Source: Actinomycetospora termitidis
GTDB lineage: Bacteria; Actinomycetota; Actinomycetes; Mycobacteriales; Pseudonocardiaceae
Assembly: GCF_030286555.1 (NCBI RefSeq)
Contig: NZ_JASVWF010000002.1
Location: forward strand, 496,001 to 560,000
Reading direction: 5' to 3'
Length of the DNA stretch: 64,000 nucleotides
A program made the translations under genes and the position numbers. Within the stretch, counting starts at the first letter, position 1; each line of letters begins with the position of its first letter. Of this stretch, positions 1 through 9,378 are shown one piece after another. Below the pieces are notes generated by a model, which was not told the origin of the DNA, did not search any database, and was given only the letters and a program-made list of their open reading frames with translations.

Positions 1-1276
1 GCAGCAGGGCGTGCTGCCGGCGGACCTGGTCGCGGCCGCGGTAGGGCTCGCGGCGGCCCTCGTACTCGCTGGAGAGCCAGCCGTCCCAGCCGGTGCGCCG
101 CAGCACGTCGACGATCGGTTCCCAGGGGATGTGCAGGTCCCGCCCGGCGTCGTCGATCTCGAAGAACTTCGTCTGGATGAACGCGACGTCGTCGATCATC
201 TCCTCGAGGTCGGACACCGGCACCGCCAGCGGTTCGAGGAACGCGGGCCGCTTGCCCTTCGCGAAGCCCTCGTGGCCGTCGTCCACGGGAACGGTCTGGA
301 AGATTCCCGTGTCGACCATCAGCCGGAAGTGCTTGGAGCCGGTCCGCCGCATGAACTCCCGGTAGCCGTCGACGACGGGGTGGTGCAACGGGGTCGGGCT
401 GTGGATCTCGGGGCAGATGACGACGTCGAGGTCCGCGGCCAGATCCAGCACCTTCTCGACGGCGGGTGCCCAGATCGGGTGCGGGTCCAGCTCGGCGGAG
501 ACGACGCCGAACTTGGGCCGGAGGAAGCCGAAGCCGAGCCGGTGGGCCAGGCGGAGGTCCCGGGCGAGCTGCGCCGCGCCCTCGTCGACGGTGAGGTCGC
601 GGTCGCGCCACATCGCCGTGTCGACCCAGGCCCCGAGGTTCGTCGGCACCAGGCCGTGGCGCTCGAGGCTGGCGTGCCAGGTGTCGATCCACGCCGACGA
701 CGGCTCGGGGTAGCCCGGCACGTGGGCCTCCCCGAGGATCTCGATCCCGGTGGCGCCGAGGTCGGCGATGTCGGCCATCGCGTCCTCGAGCGTCATCGAG
801 GTGAACATGTCCCCGGCGTAGCTGTAGAGGGACACGCCCAGCCGGGGCCCGGTGATCGGTGCGTCCGGCACGACGACCCGCACTCCCTCGGCCCGGAAGA
901 CCGAGGGCTGGGCGAACGCCGGGATGTACGGCGCGCGGAGCCGGACGGCCACCGCCACCTGGTGCGGGCCGAGGCGCAGCCCGCCGGGACGCGGGACGGT
1001 GACGGTCGCGAGCTCGTCGGCGGCCCAGCGGACGTCGGTCGAGGCGCGGAGCTCGTCGAGGGTGAACGTGCGGCCCTGCAGGGTCCAGACGCCGGCCTCG
1101 GGCGGGAAGCTCTCGCCGTCGACGACGACCTCGACCCCCTCGACGAGGCTGCCCGCGATCCCGCGGTAGTTGGGCATCCGCAGGTCCATGCGGAAGCCGG
1201 TGACGGTCCCGTCGGCGGCGGCGACGTTGGCGAAGCCGCGGCGCTGGACGAGGTCGCGTTCGAGCACGGTGGTCAC
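1..1276 (-). CDS. Fused C-glycoside deglycosidase beta (DUF6379) + alpha (TIM-barrel) subunits, 3' end outside window
   Basis: 425 residues are visible and no stop occurs before the window edge. Residues 1-120 look like the small beta subunit of C-deglycosylating enzymes (DUF6379, DgpB/CarB), with the blocks MPNYRGIAGSLVEG and TDVRWAADELATVTV. From about residue 145 an AP-endonuclease-2-like TIM barrel begins (LGVSLYSYAGDMFT), the fold of the alpha subunit DgpC/CarC. Probable metal ligands are the acidic and polar residues of ICPEIH, MVDTG, QTKFFEID and SSEYEG. In characterised systems the two subunits are separate and together cleave the C-C bond of 3-keto C-glycosides by beta-elimination. 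Here they are one chain, beta first. The GTG start overlaps the stop of the upstream oxidase by four bases (GTGA), so translation is probably coupled. Function is inferred from family and neighbours. The substrate is unknown. Confidence 0.8.
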   Translation of the reverse strand, partial: MTTVLERDLVQRRGFANVAAADGTVTGFRMDLRMPNYRGIAGSLVEGVEVVVDGESFPPEAGVWTLQGRTFTLDELRASTDVRWAADELATVTVPRPGGLRLGPHQVAVAVRLRAPYIPAFAQPSVFRAEGVRVVVPDAPITGPRLGVSLYSYAGDMFTSMTLEDAMADIADLGATGIEILGEAHVPGYPEPSSAWIDTWHASLERHGLVPTNLGAWVDTAMWRDRDLTVDEGAAQLARDLRLAHRLGFGFLRPKFGVVSAELDPHPIWAPAVEKVLDLAADLDVVICPEIHSPTPLHHPVVDGYREFMRRTGSKHFRLMVDTGIFQTVPVDDGHEGFAKGKRPAFLEPLAVPVSDLEEMIDDVAFIQTKFFEIDDAGRDLHIPWEPIVDVLRRTGWDGWLSSEYEGRREPYRGRDQVRRQHALL

Positions 1277-2769
1277 GCTCCCTGGGCGGGTCGGGCACCG
1301 GTGAGGGTGCGGGTCAGGTCGGCGGCGATCGCGCGGGCGCCCGCGACGGCGAGCGCGAGCGCGGTGAGGGTGGGGTTGGCGGCGATCTCGGTGCCGATCA
1401 CGCCGTTGCCGGCGACGCGGAGGTGCTCGACTCCCCACACCTGCGACGTCGGGTCGCAGACGCTGGTCCCGTCGTCGGCGCGGCCGAGGCGCACCGTGCC
1501 CTGGTAGTGCAGCGAGGCGCCGGCGGACAACACGACCGGCGCGGGGTCCAGGGGCTCGCCGAGCGCGTGCGCGGCGCGGCGCACCGCGGCCGTCGCGGCC
1601 TCGGTCCGTTCCCGGTCGACCGCGGACAGCCCGTAGTGGATCGTCGGCGCGGGCAGGCCGTAGGCGTCGAGGTCACCCGCGTCGAAGGTCACGCGGTCCT
1701 CGGCGCGGACGTCCTTCGCGCAGAACCAGCCGAGGCCGACGATCGACCCCGGGGCCGCGTCCTGCGCCACGAACGGGATCGGCGAGGCGTCGAGCTGCAT
1801 CATCTGGCCGTGGAAGGGCTCGGAGCGGGTGTACGGCACCCAGCTCACGCCCGCGGACGCCGCGGCGGGCGGGCGTCCGGCCACGTCGCGCAACCGGACG
1901 GCGTACACGATCTGCGGCTGGTCGTTCAGGTACCGGCCCAGGGCGGCGGGCCGGACGCCGGAGGCCCACAGCAGCTGGGGGGTGCGCAGGGCGTCCGCCG
2001 CGACGACGACGTGTCGGGCGCGGACGGCGTGCTCCTCGCTGGTGCGGCGGTCGCGGACCCGCACTCCGACGGCCCGGCCGTCCTCGACGACGACGCGGGT
2101 CACCAGGGCCTCGGCGTGCAGCCCGAAGGCGGGGTCGGCCCGGGTCGCCTCGCCGAGCACGACGTCGGCGCCGGACCAGTGCACGGCGCCGTCCGCGCCG
2201 ACCCGCACGGCCAGCGGCATCGGGCCGACCCGCCGGTCGGGGGCGCGGCCGGCGTCGAGGGCCGCGGCCAGGCGCTCCCGGACCGTGCCGGCGAACGGGG
2301 CGTCGGCGAAGGGGTCCCGCGTCACCCCGAGCAGCCGCTCCGCGGTGTCGAGGAGCTCGTCGAGCCCGTCCACGTCCGGGCGCTCGTCGTCCCCGGGCCG
2401 CGGGCAGGCCCCCGTCCAGTGCGCCCCCATCCCGCCGACGCACGCGGACATCGCGACCGAGGGCATCCCGCCCGCGTGCGCGGCGTCGAGCAGGAAGGTG
2501 CCCTCGCGGCGGACCCGCGCGGCGCCGGGGCGCCACGGGGCGACCTCGGCCGGGCCGGGGCCCTCCGAGGCGGTCCGGGCACGGGCGGCCTCGTCGTCGG
2601 GGAGGTTCTTGACGTGCACCCCGGCCGGCTCGCCGAGCCGGGGACCGACCTCGAACATCGCGACCCGCGTGCCGGGGACGAGCTCGGCGAGGACCCGGGC
2701 GTAGGCCGACCCGGCCGGACCGCTGCCGACGATCGCGACCTCGACCTCGTCGGGGAAGCGGCCGGTCAC
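1273..2769 (-). CDS. GMC / pyranose-oxidase-like FAD oxidoreductase (CarA-like glycoside 3-oxidase)
   Basis: 498 residues from a GTG start. An N-terminal Rossmann motif (VAIVGSGPAGSAYARVL) binds FAD. CVGGMGAHWTGACPRP resembles the flavin-site segment of bacterial pyranose oxidase and C-glycoside oxidase (CarA) proteins. The C-terminal GMC catalytic pair is present as the His of LHYQGTVRLG and the Asn of AANPTLTALALA. Such enzymes oxidise a sugar hydroxyl, C3 for CarA, making the keto-glycoside that the deglycosidase needs. Start and stop overlap both neighbours by four bases (GTGA on each side), so it is tightly coupled between the importer and the fused deglycosidase. The upstream reading frame is open well into the importer gene, so the start rests on the overlap and on the Rossmann fold beginning there. 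A pyranose 2-oxidase specificity cannot be excluded. Confidence 0.82.
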   Translation of the reverse strand: MTGRFPDEVEVAIVGSGPAGSAYARVLAELVPGTRVAMFEVGPRLGEPAGVHVKNLPDDEAARARTASEGPGPAEVAPWRPGAARVRREGTFLLDAAHAGGMPSVAMSACVGGMGAHWTGACPRPGDDERPDVDGLDELLDTAERLLGVTRDPFADAPFAGTVRERLAAALDAGRAPDRRVGPMPLAVRVGADGAVHWSGADVVLGEATRADPAFGLHAEALVTRVVVEDGRAVGVRVRDRRTSEEHAVRARHVVVAADALRTPQLLWASGVRPAALGRYLNDQPQIVYAVRLRDVAGRPPAAASAGVSWVPYTRSEPFHGQMMQLDASPIPFVAQDAAPGSIVGLGWFCAKDVRAEDRVTFDAGDLDAYGLPAPTIHYGLSAVDRERTEAATAAVRRAAHALGEPLDPAPVVLSAGASLHYQGTVRLGRADDGTSVCDPTSQVWGVEHLRVAGNGVIGTEIAANPTLTALALAVAGARAIAADLTRTLTGARPAQGA

Positions 2770-4163
2770 GCGGGCTCCCCGGCACGTCGGGCCTCGTTGG
2801 CGGCGACGACGGTGGGCAGGTCGCGCTCGAGACGGTAGAAGGCCAGAGCGGCGACCTGGAGCAGGGCGAGGACGATCGGCAGGCCGACGTAGAGCCAGGT
2901 CAGGCCGGTCGTGACGGCGGGGTCGGCAGCGCCGGGGCGGTACCCGATCACCGCGAGCCCGAAGGCGAGCAGTGCGCCGCCGATCGCGGTGCCGACCTTC
3001 GTCGCGAAGGAGTAGCCGGCGTAGAGCAACCCCTCGTTGCGCTCGCCGGTGCGGTGCTCCTGGTACTCGACGGTGTCCGAGACCAGGGCCGGCGCGGCCA
3101 CGAACCCGAAGCCGCCGACGATGCCGGAGACGAAGAAGAGGGCGGTGAACAGGGCCAGGTTCCCGGTCGCCGGGACGAGCAGGAGGTGTACCGGGACGCT
3201 GAGCAGCAGGCCGCCGATCACGCCGCGACGGTGGCCGGTGCGGCGCAGGACCCACGGGGTGACGATCGAGCCGAGCAGGGCCGAGACGGAGAAGCCGAGC
3301 AGGATCACCGGGATCGCGCCGGGGTTCCCCATCACCGAGAGCGCGTAGTACACGGCGCCACCGGTCAGCACACCGAGGCGGGCGAACATGAACAGGCTGG
3401 AGACGAAGACGGCGACCCACGGGGTGTTCGACGCGAGGGTGCGCAGGCTGGTGCCGAGCGAGCGGCGCTGCGCGGCGGGGGTGAACGGGACGCGCTCCTT
3501 CGCGGTGCCGGCGACCACCCAGAACAGCAGCAGCCCGACCCCGGCGAAGATCGAGACGACGACGAGGAACCCGTGGCGCTGGTCGCCGCCGCCGAACACG
3601 CCGACCAGGGGCGTCGTCAGGCCGGAGACGACGACGAGGCCGATCGAGGCGCAGGCGAAGCGCCAGCCGGAGAGTCGCATGCGCACGTCGGAGGACCGGG
3701 TCATCATCGGCATGAGGGCGCCGTAGGGGATGTTCACCAGCGAGTAGACGAGACCGACGAGGATCAGCGAGGCGTAGGCCCAGACGATCGAGCCGGTGCC
3801 GCCGCCGGGGGCGGGCGTGGTGAACGTGAGCACGGTCAGCACCGCGAGCACCGGTGCCCCGAACATCAGGTAGGGGCGGGCCCGGCCGAACCGCGTCTGC
3901 GTGCGGTCGAGCAGCAGCCCGACGGCGGGATCGGCGATCGCGTCGAGCGCGCGGGCGACGAACAGGATCGTGCCCGCGGTCGCGGCGCCGATGAGGGCGA
4001 CGTCGGTGTAGAAGAAGAGCAGGTAGCTGGTGATCGTCGTCCAGGTCAGGTTGGACGCGAGGTCGCCGAGGCCGTAGCCGAGGCGTTCGCCGACGCGGGG
4101 CTGTGCGTCGGCCGGGGCGGAGGGCGCGGCCGCGACCGGGCCGTCCACGGTCTCACTCGTCAT
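2766..4163 (-). CDS. GPH-family glycoside:cation symporter (MFS)
   Basis: 465 residues with about 12 membrane segments. The N-terminus GERLGYGLGDLASN followed by ALDAIADPAVGLLLDRTQTR is the signature of the glycoside-pentoside-hexuronide cation symporter family (MelB/LacS/XylP relatives), which imports glycosides with a proton or sodium ion. A GGAG ribosome-binding site precedes the ATG. The gene lies between the isomerase (34-base gap) and the oxidase (4-base overlap), which makes it the probable uptake step for the glycoside that the operon degrades. The particular glycoside cannot be read from the sequence. Confidence 0.87.
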   Translation of the reverse strand: MTSETVDGPVAAAPSAPADAQPRVGERLGYGLGDLASNLTWTTITSYLLFFYTDVALIGAATAGTILFVARALDAIADPAVGLLLDRTQTRFGRARPYLMFGAPVLAVLTVLTFTTPAPGGGTGSIVWAYASLILVGLVYSLVNIPYGALMPMMTRSSDVRMRLSGWRFACASIGLVVVSGLTTPLVGVFGGGDQRHGFLVVVSIFAGVGLLLFWVVAGTAKERVPFTPAAQRRSLGTSLRTLASNTPWVAVFVSSLFMFARLGVLTGGAVYYALSVMGNPGAIPVILLGFSVSALLGSIVTPWVLRRTGHRRGVIGGLLLSVPVHLLLVPATGNLALFTALFFVSGIVGGFGFVAAPALVSDTVEYQEHRTGERNEGLLYAGYSFATKVGTAIGGALLAFGLAVIGYRPGAADPAVTTGLTWLYVGLPIVLALLQVAALAFYRLERDLPTVVAANEARRAGEPA

Positions 4164-4197
4164 CGAGGGCTCCAGGGAGTCGGTGGTGGGAGAGGTG

Positions 4198-5118
4198 TCA
4201 GGGGGTGACGAGCGGGCGCAGGGTGCGGTGGGCGATGCGCAGGCCGTCCTCGACGCGGTCGGGCGTGCCGCCCCAGACCGGGTCCTCGTGCTCGACGGAC
4301 AGGACGCCGGAGAAGCCGCCCTCGTGCAGGGCGTCGACGACGCCGGGCCAGTCGACCTGGCCGCGGCCGGGGACGCGGTAGCGCCACCACCCGACGTCCC
4401 AGGGGTCGGTGCGACCGACCGCGATGCCGGGCCAGCCGTAGCGGTGCCGACGCTCGGGGAAGAGCTCGACGTCCTTGGCCTGCGCGTGCCGGACGCGGTC
4501 GACGTAGGGGCGCAGTGCGGTGACCGGGTCGATGCCCATCCACATCAGGTGCGACGGGTCGTAGTTCAGGTACAGGCCGAGGGAGAACATCCACTCCCAC
4601 AGCTCGGGGGAATAGGCGAGGTTCCCGGGATAGCCGTCCGGGTGCCAGCCCTCCATCACGCAGTTCTCGATGACGATGTCCACCCCGCGCTCGCCCGCGT
4701 GGTCGACGATCGGCGCGAACACGGTCTCCGCGTCGGCGAGGTTCTCCGCGACGGTGCGGCCGGGGTGCCGGCCGACGAACGTGCCGACGGTGGGGACGCC
4801 CAGGGCGGCGGCCGCGTCGATGCAGGTGTGCAGGTGCTCGTGTACCGCGGCGCGCTCGCGGGCGTCGGGGTGCAGCGGGTTGTCGTAGTAGGCCAGCGAG
4901 GAGATCGCGAGGTCGTGCTTGCCGACGGTCTCGGCGATCTCGTCGGTCTGCCGGTCGGTCATCTCGGGCAGGGGCAGGTGGGCGGCGGTGAACGGGCGGT
5001 CGCCGAGCGCGGGCCAGGCGGCGACCTCGAGGGCCTCGAAGCCCTGCGCGGCCGCGAACGCGGCGATCTCTCCCAGCGTGCGTCCGGGCAGGCAGGCGGT
5101 GAGGAAGCCGAGCTTCAT
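4198..5118 (-). CDS. Sugar phosphate isomerase/epimerase (AP-endonuclease-2 TIM barrel)
   Basis: 306 residues, one complete TIM barrel starting MKLGFLTACLPGRTLGEIA. Metal-binding acidic and histidine residues are visible in DIVIENCVMEGWHPD, LNYDPSHLMWMG, HAQAKDVEL and LSVEHEDPVW. Proteins of this fold isomerise or epimerise keto-sugars, and some dehydrate 3-keto-glycosides. It is a second TIM barrel, distinct from the one in the fused deglycosidase at the operon's end. A role in processing the released keto-sugar is an inference. ATG overlaps the stop of the upstream dehydrogenase (ATGA). Confidence 0.85.
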   Translation of the reverse strand: MKLGFLTACLPGRTLGEIAAFAAAQGFEALEVAAWPALGDRPFTAAHLPLPEMTDRQTDEIAETVGKHDLAISSLAYYDNPLHPDARERAAVHEHLHTCIDAAAALGVPTVGTFVGRHPGRTVAENLADAETVFAPIVDHAGERGVDIVIENCVMEGWHPDGYPGNLAYSPELWEWMFSLGLYLNYDPSHLMWMGIDPVTALRPYVDRVRHAQAKDVELFPERRHRYGWPGIAVGRTDPWDVGWWRYRVPGRGQVDWPGVVDALHEGGFSGVLSVEHEDPVWGGTPDRVEDGLRIAHRTLRPLVTP

Positions 5119-6176
5119 CGCGGGACCTCGATCCAGGTGCCGGTGGCGGCCGAGGTCAGGACGGCCTCGGTGAGGGCGGCGGCGCGGCGGCCGTCGGCGA
5201 AGGTGGGGAGCCCGTCGGGGGCTTGGCCGCCGATCGCCGCGTAGGTGTCGGCGACGAAGGCGTCGAAGCAGTCCTGGTAGCCCTGCGGGTGTCCCGTCGG
5301 GACGAGCGAGTAGGGGGAGCCCTCCTCACCGCGGCGCAGCTCGCGGTTGCCGTCCCGCCCGCCGATCCACAGCGTCTCCGGCTGTTCCTGGTCGAAGGCC
5401 AGGCTCTCGCGCGCGGCGTCGACCGACAGCGCCAGCCGGTTCTTGCGCCCGGGGCTGACCTGGCTGACGACCAGGCTGCCGGCGACCCCGCCGACGGTCT
5501 CGAACTGCACGGTCGCCGCGTCCTCGGTGCGCACCGGGCGCCCGCCGCGGACCGGCTCGGCGATCACCGTGCGGGCGGACAGGCGGGCGATGCGGTCACC
5601 GGAGACGAACTCCGCGAGGTCGCACCAGTGCACCCCGATGTCGGCGAACGCCCGGGAGCCGCCGCCCCGGGCCGGGTCGACGCGCCAGTTCTCGTCGTCC
5701 GGGAGCGCCATCCAGTCCTGCAGGTAGTGCCCGTGCAGCAGGCGCACCGGGCCGGTGGTGCCGTCGGCGACGCGGGCGCGGGCAGCGCGGACGGTGGGGT
5801 AGAAGCGGTAGACAAACGGCACCGTCGCGACCCGTCCGGCCGCGGCCGCGAGGAGCTGGTCGGCCTCGGCCAGGCCCGTCGCGAGCGGCTTCTCGCATAC
5901 GACGTGCTTGCCGGCGCGCAGCGCGGCGGCGGCGATCGAGGCGTGGGTGGCATTCGGCGTGCAGACGTGGACGACGTCGACGTCGGATGCCTCGAGGAGC
6001 TCCTCGACCGAGGCCGTGGCGTACTCCGCGTCGAACCGGTCCGCCGCGGCCGCGCTCGACCCCGGGGTCGAGCCGACGATCCGCGACACGACCGCTCCTG
6101 CCCGGCGGACCGCCCGGGCGTGCACCGTGCCCATGAACCCGGTCCCGACGATCCCCGCATGGATCCGGTCCGACAT
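5115..6176 (-). CDS. Gfo/Idh/MocA family NAD(P)-dependent oxidoreductase
   Basis: 353 residues. The N-terminal nucleotide-binding fold starts AGIVGTGFMGTVHARAV. The conserved EKP triad lies in HVVCEKPLATGLAEAD, and the catalytic Asp-His pair in FADIGVHWCDLAEF. Family members oxidise or reduce sugar hydroxyls at C3 or related positions. The gut C-deglycosylation protein DgpA is of this family, so it could be a second, NAD-linked route to the 3-keto-glycoside or a reductase for the released 3-keto-sugar. It is the first gene of the operon: a 138-base gap with a perfect palindrome separates it from the ROK repressor gene. Confidence 0.87.
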   Translation of the reverse strand: MSDRIHAGIVGTGFMGTVHARAVRRAGAVVSRIVGSTPGSSAAAADRFDAEYATASVEELLEASDVDVVHVCTPNATHASIAAAALRAGKHVVCEKPLATGLAEADQLLAAAAGRVATVPFVYRFYPTVRAARARVADGTTGPVRLLHGHYLQDWMALPDDENWRVDPARGGGSRAFADIGVHWCDLAEFVSGDRIARLSARTVIAEPVRGGRPVRTEDAATVQFETVGGVAGSLVVSQVSPGRKNRLALSVDAARESLAFDQEQPETLWIGGRDGNRELRRGEEGSPYSLVPTGHPQGYQDCFDAFVADTYAAIGGQAPDGLPTFADGRRAAALTEAVLTSAATGTWIEVPR

Positions 6177-6231
6177 CCCCGCCCGCCTCCCGTGTGCTGG
6201 ACCACGGCGGTCGCCGTGGCTCGGCCCACAT

Positions 6232-6256
6232 ACTTCTGCTGATTTCGAGCAGAAGT
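6232..6256. promoter_or_regulatory. Perfect inverted repeat, probable ROK repressor operator of the glycoside operon
   Basis: ACTTCTGCT and AGCAGAAGT form perfect 9-base arms around a 7-base spacer, 56 bases before the first operon gene. The same half-site (CAGAAGTC) recurs before the ROK gene at 7584-7591. Position and symmetry fit an operator. Which protein binds is inferred from the neighbouring ROK gene. Confidence 0.6.
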
Positions 6257-6314
6257 CAACGGCGCAGCGACCTAAGAGTGGTGATACCGGGTATGCGTCC
6301 CGCGGATGATCGGG

Positions 6315-7535
6315 TCAGTTCGCGAGGGCCGGCTCGCCGCCGAAGCGCCGGCTCAGCTCGTCGCCGGAGAACACGCCGTCGAGCGCGAGGTGCACCGCTC
6401 CGACGGTCCCGCCGGTCGCGCCCAGCGCCGACGGCTCGATCCGCAGCGTGCGGGTGGCCAGGGGCAGCGAGCGGCGGTAGACCGCCTCCCGCACCGCCGC
6501 CAGGACGTGGTCGCCGGCGGCCACGACGCCGCCGGAGAGCACGACCCGTGCGGGGTTGTAGAAGCTGACCAGGGTCGCGAGGGTCGCGCCGATCACGCGT
6601 CCGGCCTCGGCCAGCAGAGCGCGGGCGGCCGGGTCGCCGTGCTCGGCGGCGACGGTGACGTCGGCGTGGGACAGCGATCCGTGCGCGTCGAGCCGCGCGG
6701 CGAGGACCTCGCTCCGGCCGGAGCGGGCGATCTCGCGGGCGTCCCGGGCGAGCGCCGCCCCGCCTGCGACGGCCTCGAGGCATCCGACGTTCCCGCACCG
6801 GCACACGACGTGCGTGTCGGTGACCGCGATGTGCCCGATGTCGCCCGCGCCGCCGTTCGCGCCGCGGTGGACCCGGCCGTTCGAGACCAGTCCCGCGCCG
6901 ATCCCGGTCCCGACCTTCACGCAGATCAGGTCCTGCCCCGCCGCCGTCGGGTCGGCGCGCAGCTCGCCCAGCGCGAGCAGGTTCACGTCGTTGTCGACCC
7001 ACACCGGCACGCCGAACCGCTCGGCGAGGCGGGCGCGGACCGGGTACCGGTCCCACCCGGGCATGATCGGCGGCGCGACGGGTAGTCCCGCGGCGACGTC
7101 GACCGGGCCGGGGAGTCCGATCCCGAGGCCCCAGACCGGGGTGTCCCGGCCGGTCAGGAGTTCCTCGACGCCCGCCTCGACCCGGCCGAGCACGAGTTCC
7201 GGCCCGTCCGCGACGTCGATGTCGACCTCGGACCGCTCGAGGACGCGCCCCGCGAGGTCGGCCACGGCCAGGCGCATCCCGCTGGCCCCGGCGTCGACGC
7301 CGACCACGACGCCGGCCTCGGCACGCAGGCGCAGCCGGCGGGGGGCGCGGCCCCCGGTGGACGGCCCGAGCCCGGCCTCCCCCAGGAGGCCGAGCTCACG
7401 CAGCTCCGCGACGCGTGCGGCGACGATGCTGCGACTGGAGCCGCACAGTCGGACGAGTTCGGGCTGACTGACGTCGGTCCGGGTCCGGACCGCGTGCAGG
7501 ACGTCCACCAGGTCGTCCGGGAACCCCGTCGGCAC
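6315..7535 (-). CDS. ROK-family transcriptional repressor
   Basis: 406 residues from GTG, with the purine-rich ribosome-binding site GGGAGGGAG just upstream. Residues 1-60 form a winged helix-turn-helix (SQPELVRLCGSSRSIVAARV). The rest is a ROK sugar-binding domain: GVDAGASGMRLAVADLAG (phosphate-loop-like), GIGLPGPVD, WVDNDVNLLALGE, and the zinc-binding motif CRCGNVGCLEAVAGG. ROK repressors release DNA when they bind a sugar or sugar phosphate. Upstream of, and co-oriented with, the glycoside operon, it is the obvious local regulator and probably controls itself through the 7565-7592 repeat. Confidence 0.88.
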   Translation of the reverse strand: MPTGFPDDLVDVLHAVRTRTDVSQPELVRLCGSSRSIVAARVAELRELGLLGEAGLGPSTGGRAPRRLRLRAEAGVVVGVDAGASGMRLAVADLAGRVLERSEVDIDVADGPELVLGRVEAGVEELLTGRDTPVWGLGIGLPGPVDVAAGLPVAPPIMPGWDRYPVRARLAERFGVPVWVDNDVNLLALGELRADPTAAGQDLICVKVGTGIGAGLVSNGRVHRGANGGAGDIGHIAVTDTHVVCRCGNVGCLEAVAGGAALARDAREIARSGRSEVLAARLDAHGSLSHADVTVAAEHGDPAARALLAEAGRVIGATLATLVSFYNPARVVLSGGVVAAGDHVLAAVREAVYRRSLPLATRTLRIEPSALGATGGTVGAVHLALDGVFSGDELSRRFGGEPALAN

Positions 7536-7564
7536 CGCGCTCCCTCCCGGTCCCGCCGTCGACG

Positions 7565-7592
7565 GGACTTCGGTCGGAATCTACAGAAGTCC
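7565..7592. promoter_or_regulatory. Inverted repeat upstream of the ROK gene, possible autoregulatory operator
   Basis: GGACTTC and GAAGTCC are 7-base arms 14 bases apart, 30 bases before the ROK start. The outer ACTTC/GAAGT pair matches the operon palindrome at 6232-6256, where the same two pentamers are 15 bases apart. Confidence 0.45.
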
Positions 7593-9071: not shown

Positions 9072-9145
9072 TGAGCCAACCCGACGACGTCGGGTGCCTC
9101 GGTCACCCCACGGGGCACCGGAGCCACCGGACCCCGGCCGCCCGG

Positions 9146-9378
9146 GGCCGGCCGTGTGCGGGACGCAACGGGGATCGGTTGCTGTACGAGTCGGGCCGGC
9201 CGTGTGCGGGACGCAACGGGGAGCCGTTGCTGCACGAGACGGGCCGGCCGTGTGCGGGACGCAACGGGGATCGGTTGCTGCACGAGTCGGGCCGGCCGTG
9301 TGCGGGACGCAACGGGGAACCGCGGCTACACGGGATACGCCGGCCGTGTGCGGGACGCAACGGGGTACACGAGGTGAG
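9146..9378 (+). repeat. Five tandem 48-base repeat units upstream of ftsK
   Basis: Units start at 9146, 9194, 9242, 9290 and 9338. The best conserved part is CCGTGTGCGGGACGCAACGG, which can fold (CCGT-g-TGCG-gga-CGCA-ACGG). The remaining 28 bases vary slightly (GATCGG against GAGCCG, for example). Forty-eight bases is 16 codons, so the array is open in the ftsK frame and on the other strand. The gene-free stretch 8933-9481 (549 bases) holds the palindrome at 8931, these repeats and the ftsK promoter. I see no further gene there. Confidence 0.85.

Follow-up and report, generated by a model that had tools for sequence, protein, structure and literature searches.

The 64,000-nucleotide stretch of Actinomycetospora termitidis analysed here (hereafter the window; C11:496001-560000, contig NZ_JASVWF010000002.1, in a genome of 6.56 Mb and 30 contigs) probably carries a ROK-regulated operon for the catabolism of C-glycosides, in which the carbon-carbon bond would be cleaved by a one-chain member of the C-glycoside deglycosidase (CGD) family, following the route proposed below. 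C-glycosides are hard to degrade and CGDs are of interest to drug and food chemistry; moreover, expression and engineering should be easier with a one-chain CGD than with a complex of two chains. The operon represents a compact set for import, oxidation, cleavage and probable hydration and reduction, together with a regulator and its probable operators. A previous reading of this DNA, made from the letters alone (the sequence-only reading), had pointed to such an operon; its observation is sound and its interpretation largely right, and the type of system is already known.

A one-chain C-glycoside deglycosidase

The gene of the fused CGD occupies positions 1-1276 of the window on the minus strand. 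Its frame (1276..1) is free of stops and the gene ends 20 bases beyond the window (C11:495981), with the final 6 residues and the stop codon at C11:495981-496000, outside it. The full gene starts with a GTG at 1276 and encodes 431 amino acids with no internal stops. Pfam recognised a CGDB domain (PF19906) at residues 5-117 (E 2.3e-35, 121 bits against a cut-off of 27.6) and an AP_endonuc_2 domain (PF01261) at residues 168-413 (E 3e-17, 63.6 bits against 31.1), both above the gathering cut-off, and this domain pair assigns the protein to the CGDs. The resulting layout is a beta domain (5-117), a linker (about 118-142) and a short TIM-barrel alpha domain (about 143-431), and the protein matched eight distinct solved CGD sequences in the PDB. 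The frame and the Pfam domains bear out the earlier claim that a DUF6379 beta-subunit domain and a TIM-barrel alpha subunit share one stop-free frame; that PF19906 is the former DUF6379 fits the label 'DUF6379 domain-containing protein' carried by homologues and PDB chains. In a genome-wide profile search the fused CGD was the sole match to PF19906 in the host genome.

When the fused CGD was used as a query, 929 homologues passed, and 119 of the 120 listed (58-94% identical) were single chains with both domains. A frameshift artefact is therefore unlikely, and the concern about a frameshift raised in the sequence-only reading, along with the search for other one-chain fusions that it suggested, was settled in favour of a genuine fusion. 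The one-chain enzyme is genuine, but it is a member of an already solved family found in many actinobacteria. The CGD of Microbacterium testaceum (8qrz, 8un2) is likewise a single chain of 435 amino acids, beta followed by alpha, with 53% identity to the window protein, a full-length fold match (8qrz, TM 0.92) and the same Gln at the metal-ligand position described below, although a quick tree places it in another subclade of fused enzymes. The existence of this solved enzyme contradicts the earlier proposal that the one-chain form departs from the characterised CGDs. A published account of 8qrz/8un2, or of any one-chain CGD, was not found in the open PMC literature, which lacks most subscription journals.

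Among the PDB sequence matches listed, the nearest solved two-chain alpha subunit was that of EuCGD (DfgA-DfgB, 7bvs/7dre; E 2e-58), the closest two-chain enzyme by sequence, whose alpha of 290 amino acids is also devoid of a lid domain, but which differs in its two chains, its His as metal ligand and its Firmicute origin. PuCGD/DgpBC, AgCGD2, MiCGD, PurBC and the D. aerius CGD share the beta plus alpha make-up and the position in the pathway, and metal dependence has been published for several of them. They are, however, two-chain enzymes whose alpha chains, where a length was given, have 324-354 amino acids, against about 290 in the fused CGD, and AgCGD2 and the aligned rows of this group that were shown have a His at the ligand position where the fused CGD has a Gln.

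Conservation of catalytic and metal-binding residues

The metal ligands of AgCGD2 are E147, D179, H269, K271 and E305 and its catalytic residues H149 and E307 (Mori et al. 2021, PMC8563793), while His H143 and Glu E301 are the catalytic residues of PuCGD (PMC8563793). We aligned 32 fusions, namely the window protein and 31 chosen from the 120 listed homologues. The catalytic His292 and Glu406 were unvaried in all 32 sequences, as were the metal ligands Glu290, Asp322, Lys370 and Glu404. Four ligands of the 1His/2Glu/1Asp/1Lys metal site are thus kept, and the His is replaced by Gln368, which occupies the position of AgCGD2 H269 and was a Gln in 32/32 fusions. A wider survey of 90 alpha rows found Gln at this position in all 55 rows of the main clade (54 fused, including 8qrz, plus the homologue P0023) and, among the 33 rows of split enzymes, in 9 (3/5 close, 6/28 other), whereas the two rows of a second fused type had His. 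Since two-chain rows share the Gln and the second fused type has a His, the Gln was ruled out as a mark of fusion, and Gln368 is better described as variation within the family than as an effect of the fusion.

In the beta domain, Tyr37 aligned without gaps to position 39 of the DgpB chain and was unvaried in the 32 fusions. The corresponding Y39F substitution in PuCGE caused a 2.4-fold loss on 3-keto-phlorizin and one of about 1.2e4-fold on 3-keto-C-glucosides (Bitter et al. 2023, PMC10628242); the PuCGE alpha subunit alone kept about 1.4% of the activity on 3-keto-phlorizin and none on C-glucosides (PMC10628242). Because Tyr37 is the unvaried equivalent of this essential Tyr39, it provides the best argument from sequence that C-glycosides are the likely substrates.

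Operon partners and proposed route

Five further genes, all on the minus strand and upstream of the fusion, complete the putative operon; they are taken here in order of distance from it. The first (1276..2769) encodes a predicted PsG3Ox/CarA-like FAD (flavin adenine dinucleotide)-dependent glycoside 3-oxidase of the GMC family, closest to PsG3Ox in a PDB sequence search (7qf8, E 1.3e-169; also 7dve, E 1.6e-163), which keeps the PsG3Ox catalytic pair H440/N484 (PMC10646112) as His421/Asn465. In the cluster of Pseudarthrobacter siccitolerans this closest solved oxidase also adjoins CGD genes, but there the B and C genes of the CGDs are unfused and present as two pairs (PMC10646112). It is followed by a GPH-type glycoside/sugar cation symporter (MFS_2 in Pfam; 2766..4163) that passed the TIGR00792 cut-off (356.4 bits against 231.35), and by a second TIM barrel (AP_endonuc_2, IolE/AtHYD-like; 4198..5118). 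Just two PDB sequences matched the latter at an E of 0.001 or lower, including, weakly, the 2-hydroxy-3-keto-glucal hydratase AtHYD (8ro4, E 8.1e-5), and its sole NCBIfam match was IolE, myo-inosose-2 dehydratase (E 1e-8, 35 bits against a cut-off of 290); from these similarities we propose that it may be a 2-hydroxy-3-keto-glucal hydratase and not a second deglycosidase. The next product, a Gfo/Idh/MocA oxidoreductase by Pfam, PDB and NCBIfam matches (5115..6176), is proposed to be a 3-keto-glucose reductase, possibly also a 3-dehydrogenase. Its best NCBIfam match was the levoglucosan dehydrogenase model, with a score that stayed under the cut-off (E 2e-45), and it matched DgpA (7xr9) at E 7.9e-19, with 13 sequences ranking better among the PDB matches listed. 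The last gene (6315..7535) encodes a ROK-family regulator by Pfam, with a weak winged-helix (MarR_2) match, under the cut-off, at its N-terminus. The Pfam, PDB and NCBIfam matches agree with the gene list of the sequence-only reading (a CarA/pyranose-oxidase-like FAD enzyme, a GPH importer, a TIM barrel, a Gfo/Idh/MocA enzyme and a ROK protein).

At three of the four junctions between the fusion and gfo, stop and start codons overlap by 4 nt (fusion/GMC, GTGA; GMC/MFS, GTGA; TIM/gfo, ATGA); the remaining one, MFS/TIM, is a 34-bp gap, and 138 bp lie between gfo and rok. From this layout, a single transcript spanning gfo to the fusion is likely.

In the proposed route, the GPH symporter would bring the glycoside into the cell, where the oxidase, whose family function is published, would use O2 to convert the presumed substrate to the 3-keto-glycoside and H2O2. 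The fused CGD would hold this intermediate between its beta and alpha domains and eliminate the aglycone to yield 2-hydroxy-3-keto-glucal, with a divalent metal on the conserved Glu290, Asp322, Lys370 and Glu404 and putatively Gln368, His292 as the base and Tyr37 binding the aglycone. Hydration by the second TIM barrel would give 3-keto-glucose, which the Gfo/Idh/MocA enzyme would reduce to glucose with NADH (reduced nicotinamide adenine dinucleotide). The same order of oxidation, elimination, hydration and reduction has been predicted for the A. tumefaciens, PUE and levoglucosan operons (Bitter et al., PMC10628242), in which preliminary evidence gives one TIM barrel the role of hydratase and assigns the final reduction, that of 3-keto-glucose, to the Gfo enzyme (PMC10628242). 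The GlycDH-OGE-HYD-Gfo operon of A. tumefaciens shows the four-step order but differs in that GlycDH is the oxidising enzyme and AtOGE, which acts on O-glycosides, is described as having no sequence similarity to CGDs. Because the window operon fits this order with one protein per step, its 'two oxidation enzymes' can be read as one oxidase and one reductase. The import-oxidise-cleave route advanced previously is plausible; the accompanying view of the Gfo enzyme as a second oxidase has against it preliminary evidence that the analogue in A. tumefaciens is a reductase (PMC10628242). The window enzyme could possibly play a dual role, as reductase and 3-dehydrogenase.

Candidate operators

A repeat search revealed a candidate ROK operator preceding gfo (6232..6256), the inverted repeat ACTTCTGCT-N7-AGCAGAAGT, whose 9-bp arms match perfectly, and a pattern search found a second copy, ACTTCGG...CAGAAGT, in front of rok (7567..7590), as a candidate autoregulatory operator. 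Both copies coincide with the two expected promoters, those of gfo and rok, and the ROK protein would bind these palindromes and be released upon encountering an inducer. The shared pattern, which was drawn from these sites, had 2 matches in the window versus 0.02 expected in shuffles, and 4 sites in the 6.56 Mb genome versus none for the reversed control pattern; the other two genomic sites lie on other contigs and have other spacers. Using a looser rule, we scanned 22 other loci and found a palindrome-like site in L047 and L060. The former (L047:17826-17850), from another family of the same order, is an operator-like palindrome between divergent gfo and rok genes (ROK 58%) and resembles the two sites of the window.

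Genomic neighbourhoods of fused and two-chain enzymes

We compared 13 main-clade fused-CGD loci (our own, L004 and 11 others), a non-random set chosen among PF19906 matches, with flanks of unequal length, within distances of up to about 9 kb from the fusion (13 kb for weak matches). Counting our own locus, 12 of the 13 had a GMC oxidase (identity of at least 48%) and 8 a Gfo/Idh/MocA enzyme (66-100%), within about 9 kb. These counts do not support the earlier view that an FAD and an NAD enzyme side by side are unusual. A ROK protein (43-58%) was found in 5, or 6 if the window's own, beyond the edge of the fetched locus L002, is counted, and the MFS symporter was matched in the window alone. 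No GMC oxidase was found within the 20 kb of L057.

Partners of the window operon also accompany two-chain CGDs. L052, from the family of the window organism, has a GMC oxidase (60%), an MFS symporter (57%), a ROK protein (47%) and a two-chain CGD whose alpha and beta are each 61% identical; in this window-type operon (GMC, MFS, ROK), at L052:8883-10540 (minus strand), beta and alpha are encoded separately by genes that overlap. L058 has GMC (59%) and Gfo (70%) relatives and L060 a ROK protein (63%) with weak Gfo and TIM matches; none of the five window operon partners was matched in L055. In a genome of the same genus (G010, locus L006), a distant two-chain CGD stands beside a Gfo enzyme (54%), a TIM barrel of the same type (71%) and a distant GMC oxidase (28%). 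Among the genomes searched, own genome counted, PF19906 is uncommon: 2/18 in the genus, 17/348 in the order and 5/394 in the class.

Weighing of the proposed function

Several observations argue against a C-glycoside operon working as proposed. The metal ligand changed from His to Gln in the fused CGD is one whose replacement by Ala dramatically lowered the activity of PuCGD and MiCGD (PMC8563793); yet the solved one-chain CGD and the 9 split rows mentioned above also have Gln. The GMC oxidase, with 200.6 bits, did not reach the cut-off of the NCBIfam pyranose oxidase equivalog (544.9), the Gfo enzyme fell below every functional NCBIfam cut-off, including those of the glycoside 3-dehydrogenase models, and the hydratase role leans on weak matches (E 8e-5 and 1e-8). 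Of the 13 fused loci, the window alone has the second TIM barrel at more than 40% identity, with 3 more at 27-28%. As to regulation, the palindrome pattern was derived from the two sites themselves and like sites occurred in just 2 of the 22 other loci; in 4 of the 5 other fused loci having a ROK gene, it is about 9.4 kb from the fusion.

We also considered the view of the sequence-only reading that both oxidoreductases work in the oxidative direction, as alternative routes at C3, with a DgpA-like Gfo enzyme perhaps swapping hydride with 3-keto-glucose beside the FAD oxidase. The matches of the Gfo enzyme to DgpA and to the levoglucosan dehydrogenase model favour this possibility, which we nevertheless regard as unlikely in view of the 13 better-ranking PDB sequences and of the preliminary evidence that the A. 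tumefaciens Gfo enzyme reduces 3-keto-glucose (PMC10628242). Considerably less probable is an operon devoted mainly to O-glycosides, with the CGD homologue eliminating 3-keto-O-glycosides in the cell. It is true that PuCGE cleaves 3-keto-phlorizin, an O-glycoside, and that the oxidase PurA accepts O-glycosides, but the fusion has kept both the beta domain and Tyr37, and it was effectively all C-glucoside activity, rather than that on 3-keto-phlorizin, that PuCGE lost upon Tyr39Phe substitution or when reduced to its alpha subunit (PMC10628242). Finally, the idea that the union of two genes is peculiar to this locus or an error of the assembly, for which the alpha-only P0023 and the two-chain L052 might be invoked, was ruled out by the 119 one-chain homologues and by the 435-residue single chain of 8qrz. 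A C-glycoside operon with a one-chain CGD is thus the reading that we favour.

Possible joining and parting of the CGD subunits

Four close two-chain relatives were examined (L052, L055, L058 and L060). In each, the start codon of alpha shares bases with the stop codon of beta (ATGA or GTGA), and the last residues of beta correspond to the point at which the linker of the fused enzyme sets in; a one-base frame change could join the two genes. A tree of 90 rows (roughly every third of the 120 listed proteins, 41 in total, with 47 frames from fetched loci and two PDB rows), obtained by a quick search and carrying a long-branch warning, implied at least 4 changes between the one- and two-chain states, 3 of them forced by the starred branches. 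A second one-chain type (CGDB plus AP_endonuc_2 by Pfam; L056:13984-15468, minus strand, and L057:10789-12633, plus strand), with a longer alpha and the His ligand, fell in another clade and adjoins a main-clade fusion in both genomes; it is probably an independent fusion. The quick tree placed the two-chain L052 inside the fused rows. We did not accept the parting shown there, since the likelihood rose (p-AU 0.729) when the 54 fused main-clade rows were kept together with P0023, a group defined once the tree was known; this is compatible with a single main-clade origin without loss at that point. P0023 itself has the alpha alone, 94% identical over 68% of the query, and P0001 (93%) is fused; P0023 may have lost its beta part very recently, or one of the records may contain a frameshift.

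We tentatively suggest, at somewhat less than even confidence, that the one-chain and two-chain forms of CGD are states between which one operon enzyme can pass, joined or parted by a single small frame change, with joining at least twice (in the short-alpha, Gln-ligand clade of this gene and 8qrz, and in the longer-alpha, His-ligand clade) and possible partings. If so, the window operon would be a complete set giving back the sugar of C-glycosides as glucose. A 2025 review singled out the transition from heteromeric to fused CGDs as noteworthy and called for phylogenetic work on it (PMC12141560), and the operon and its two-chain relatives offer a test case for a heteromeric enzyme becoming a fused one.

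Other features near the operon

A putative aromatic catabolic cluster lies outside the window at L002:4632-10610 (minus strand; C11:486632-492610), comprising an amidohydrolase, two FAA hydrolases, a glyoxalase/dioxygenase-type protein, an FAD-binding protein and a cyclase. It was considered as a route for the aglycone, but convergent LysR and HAD genes and one further frame separate it from the fusion, and no connection of the two was demonstrated. Within the window, a tandem array of a 48-bp unit (9145-9365; 4.6 copies, 90% matches) is flanked by an MFS gene and by a gene that, judged by eye, looks like FtsK.

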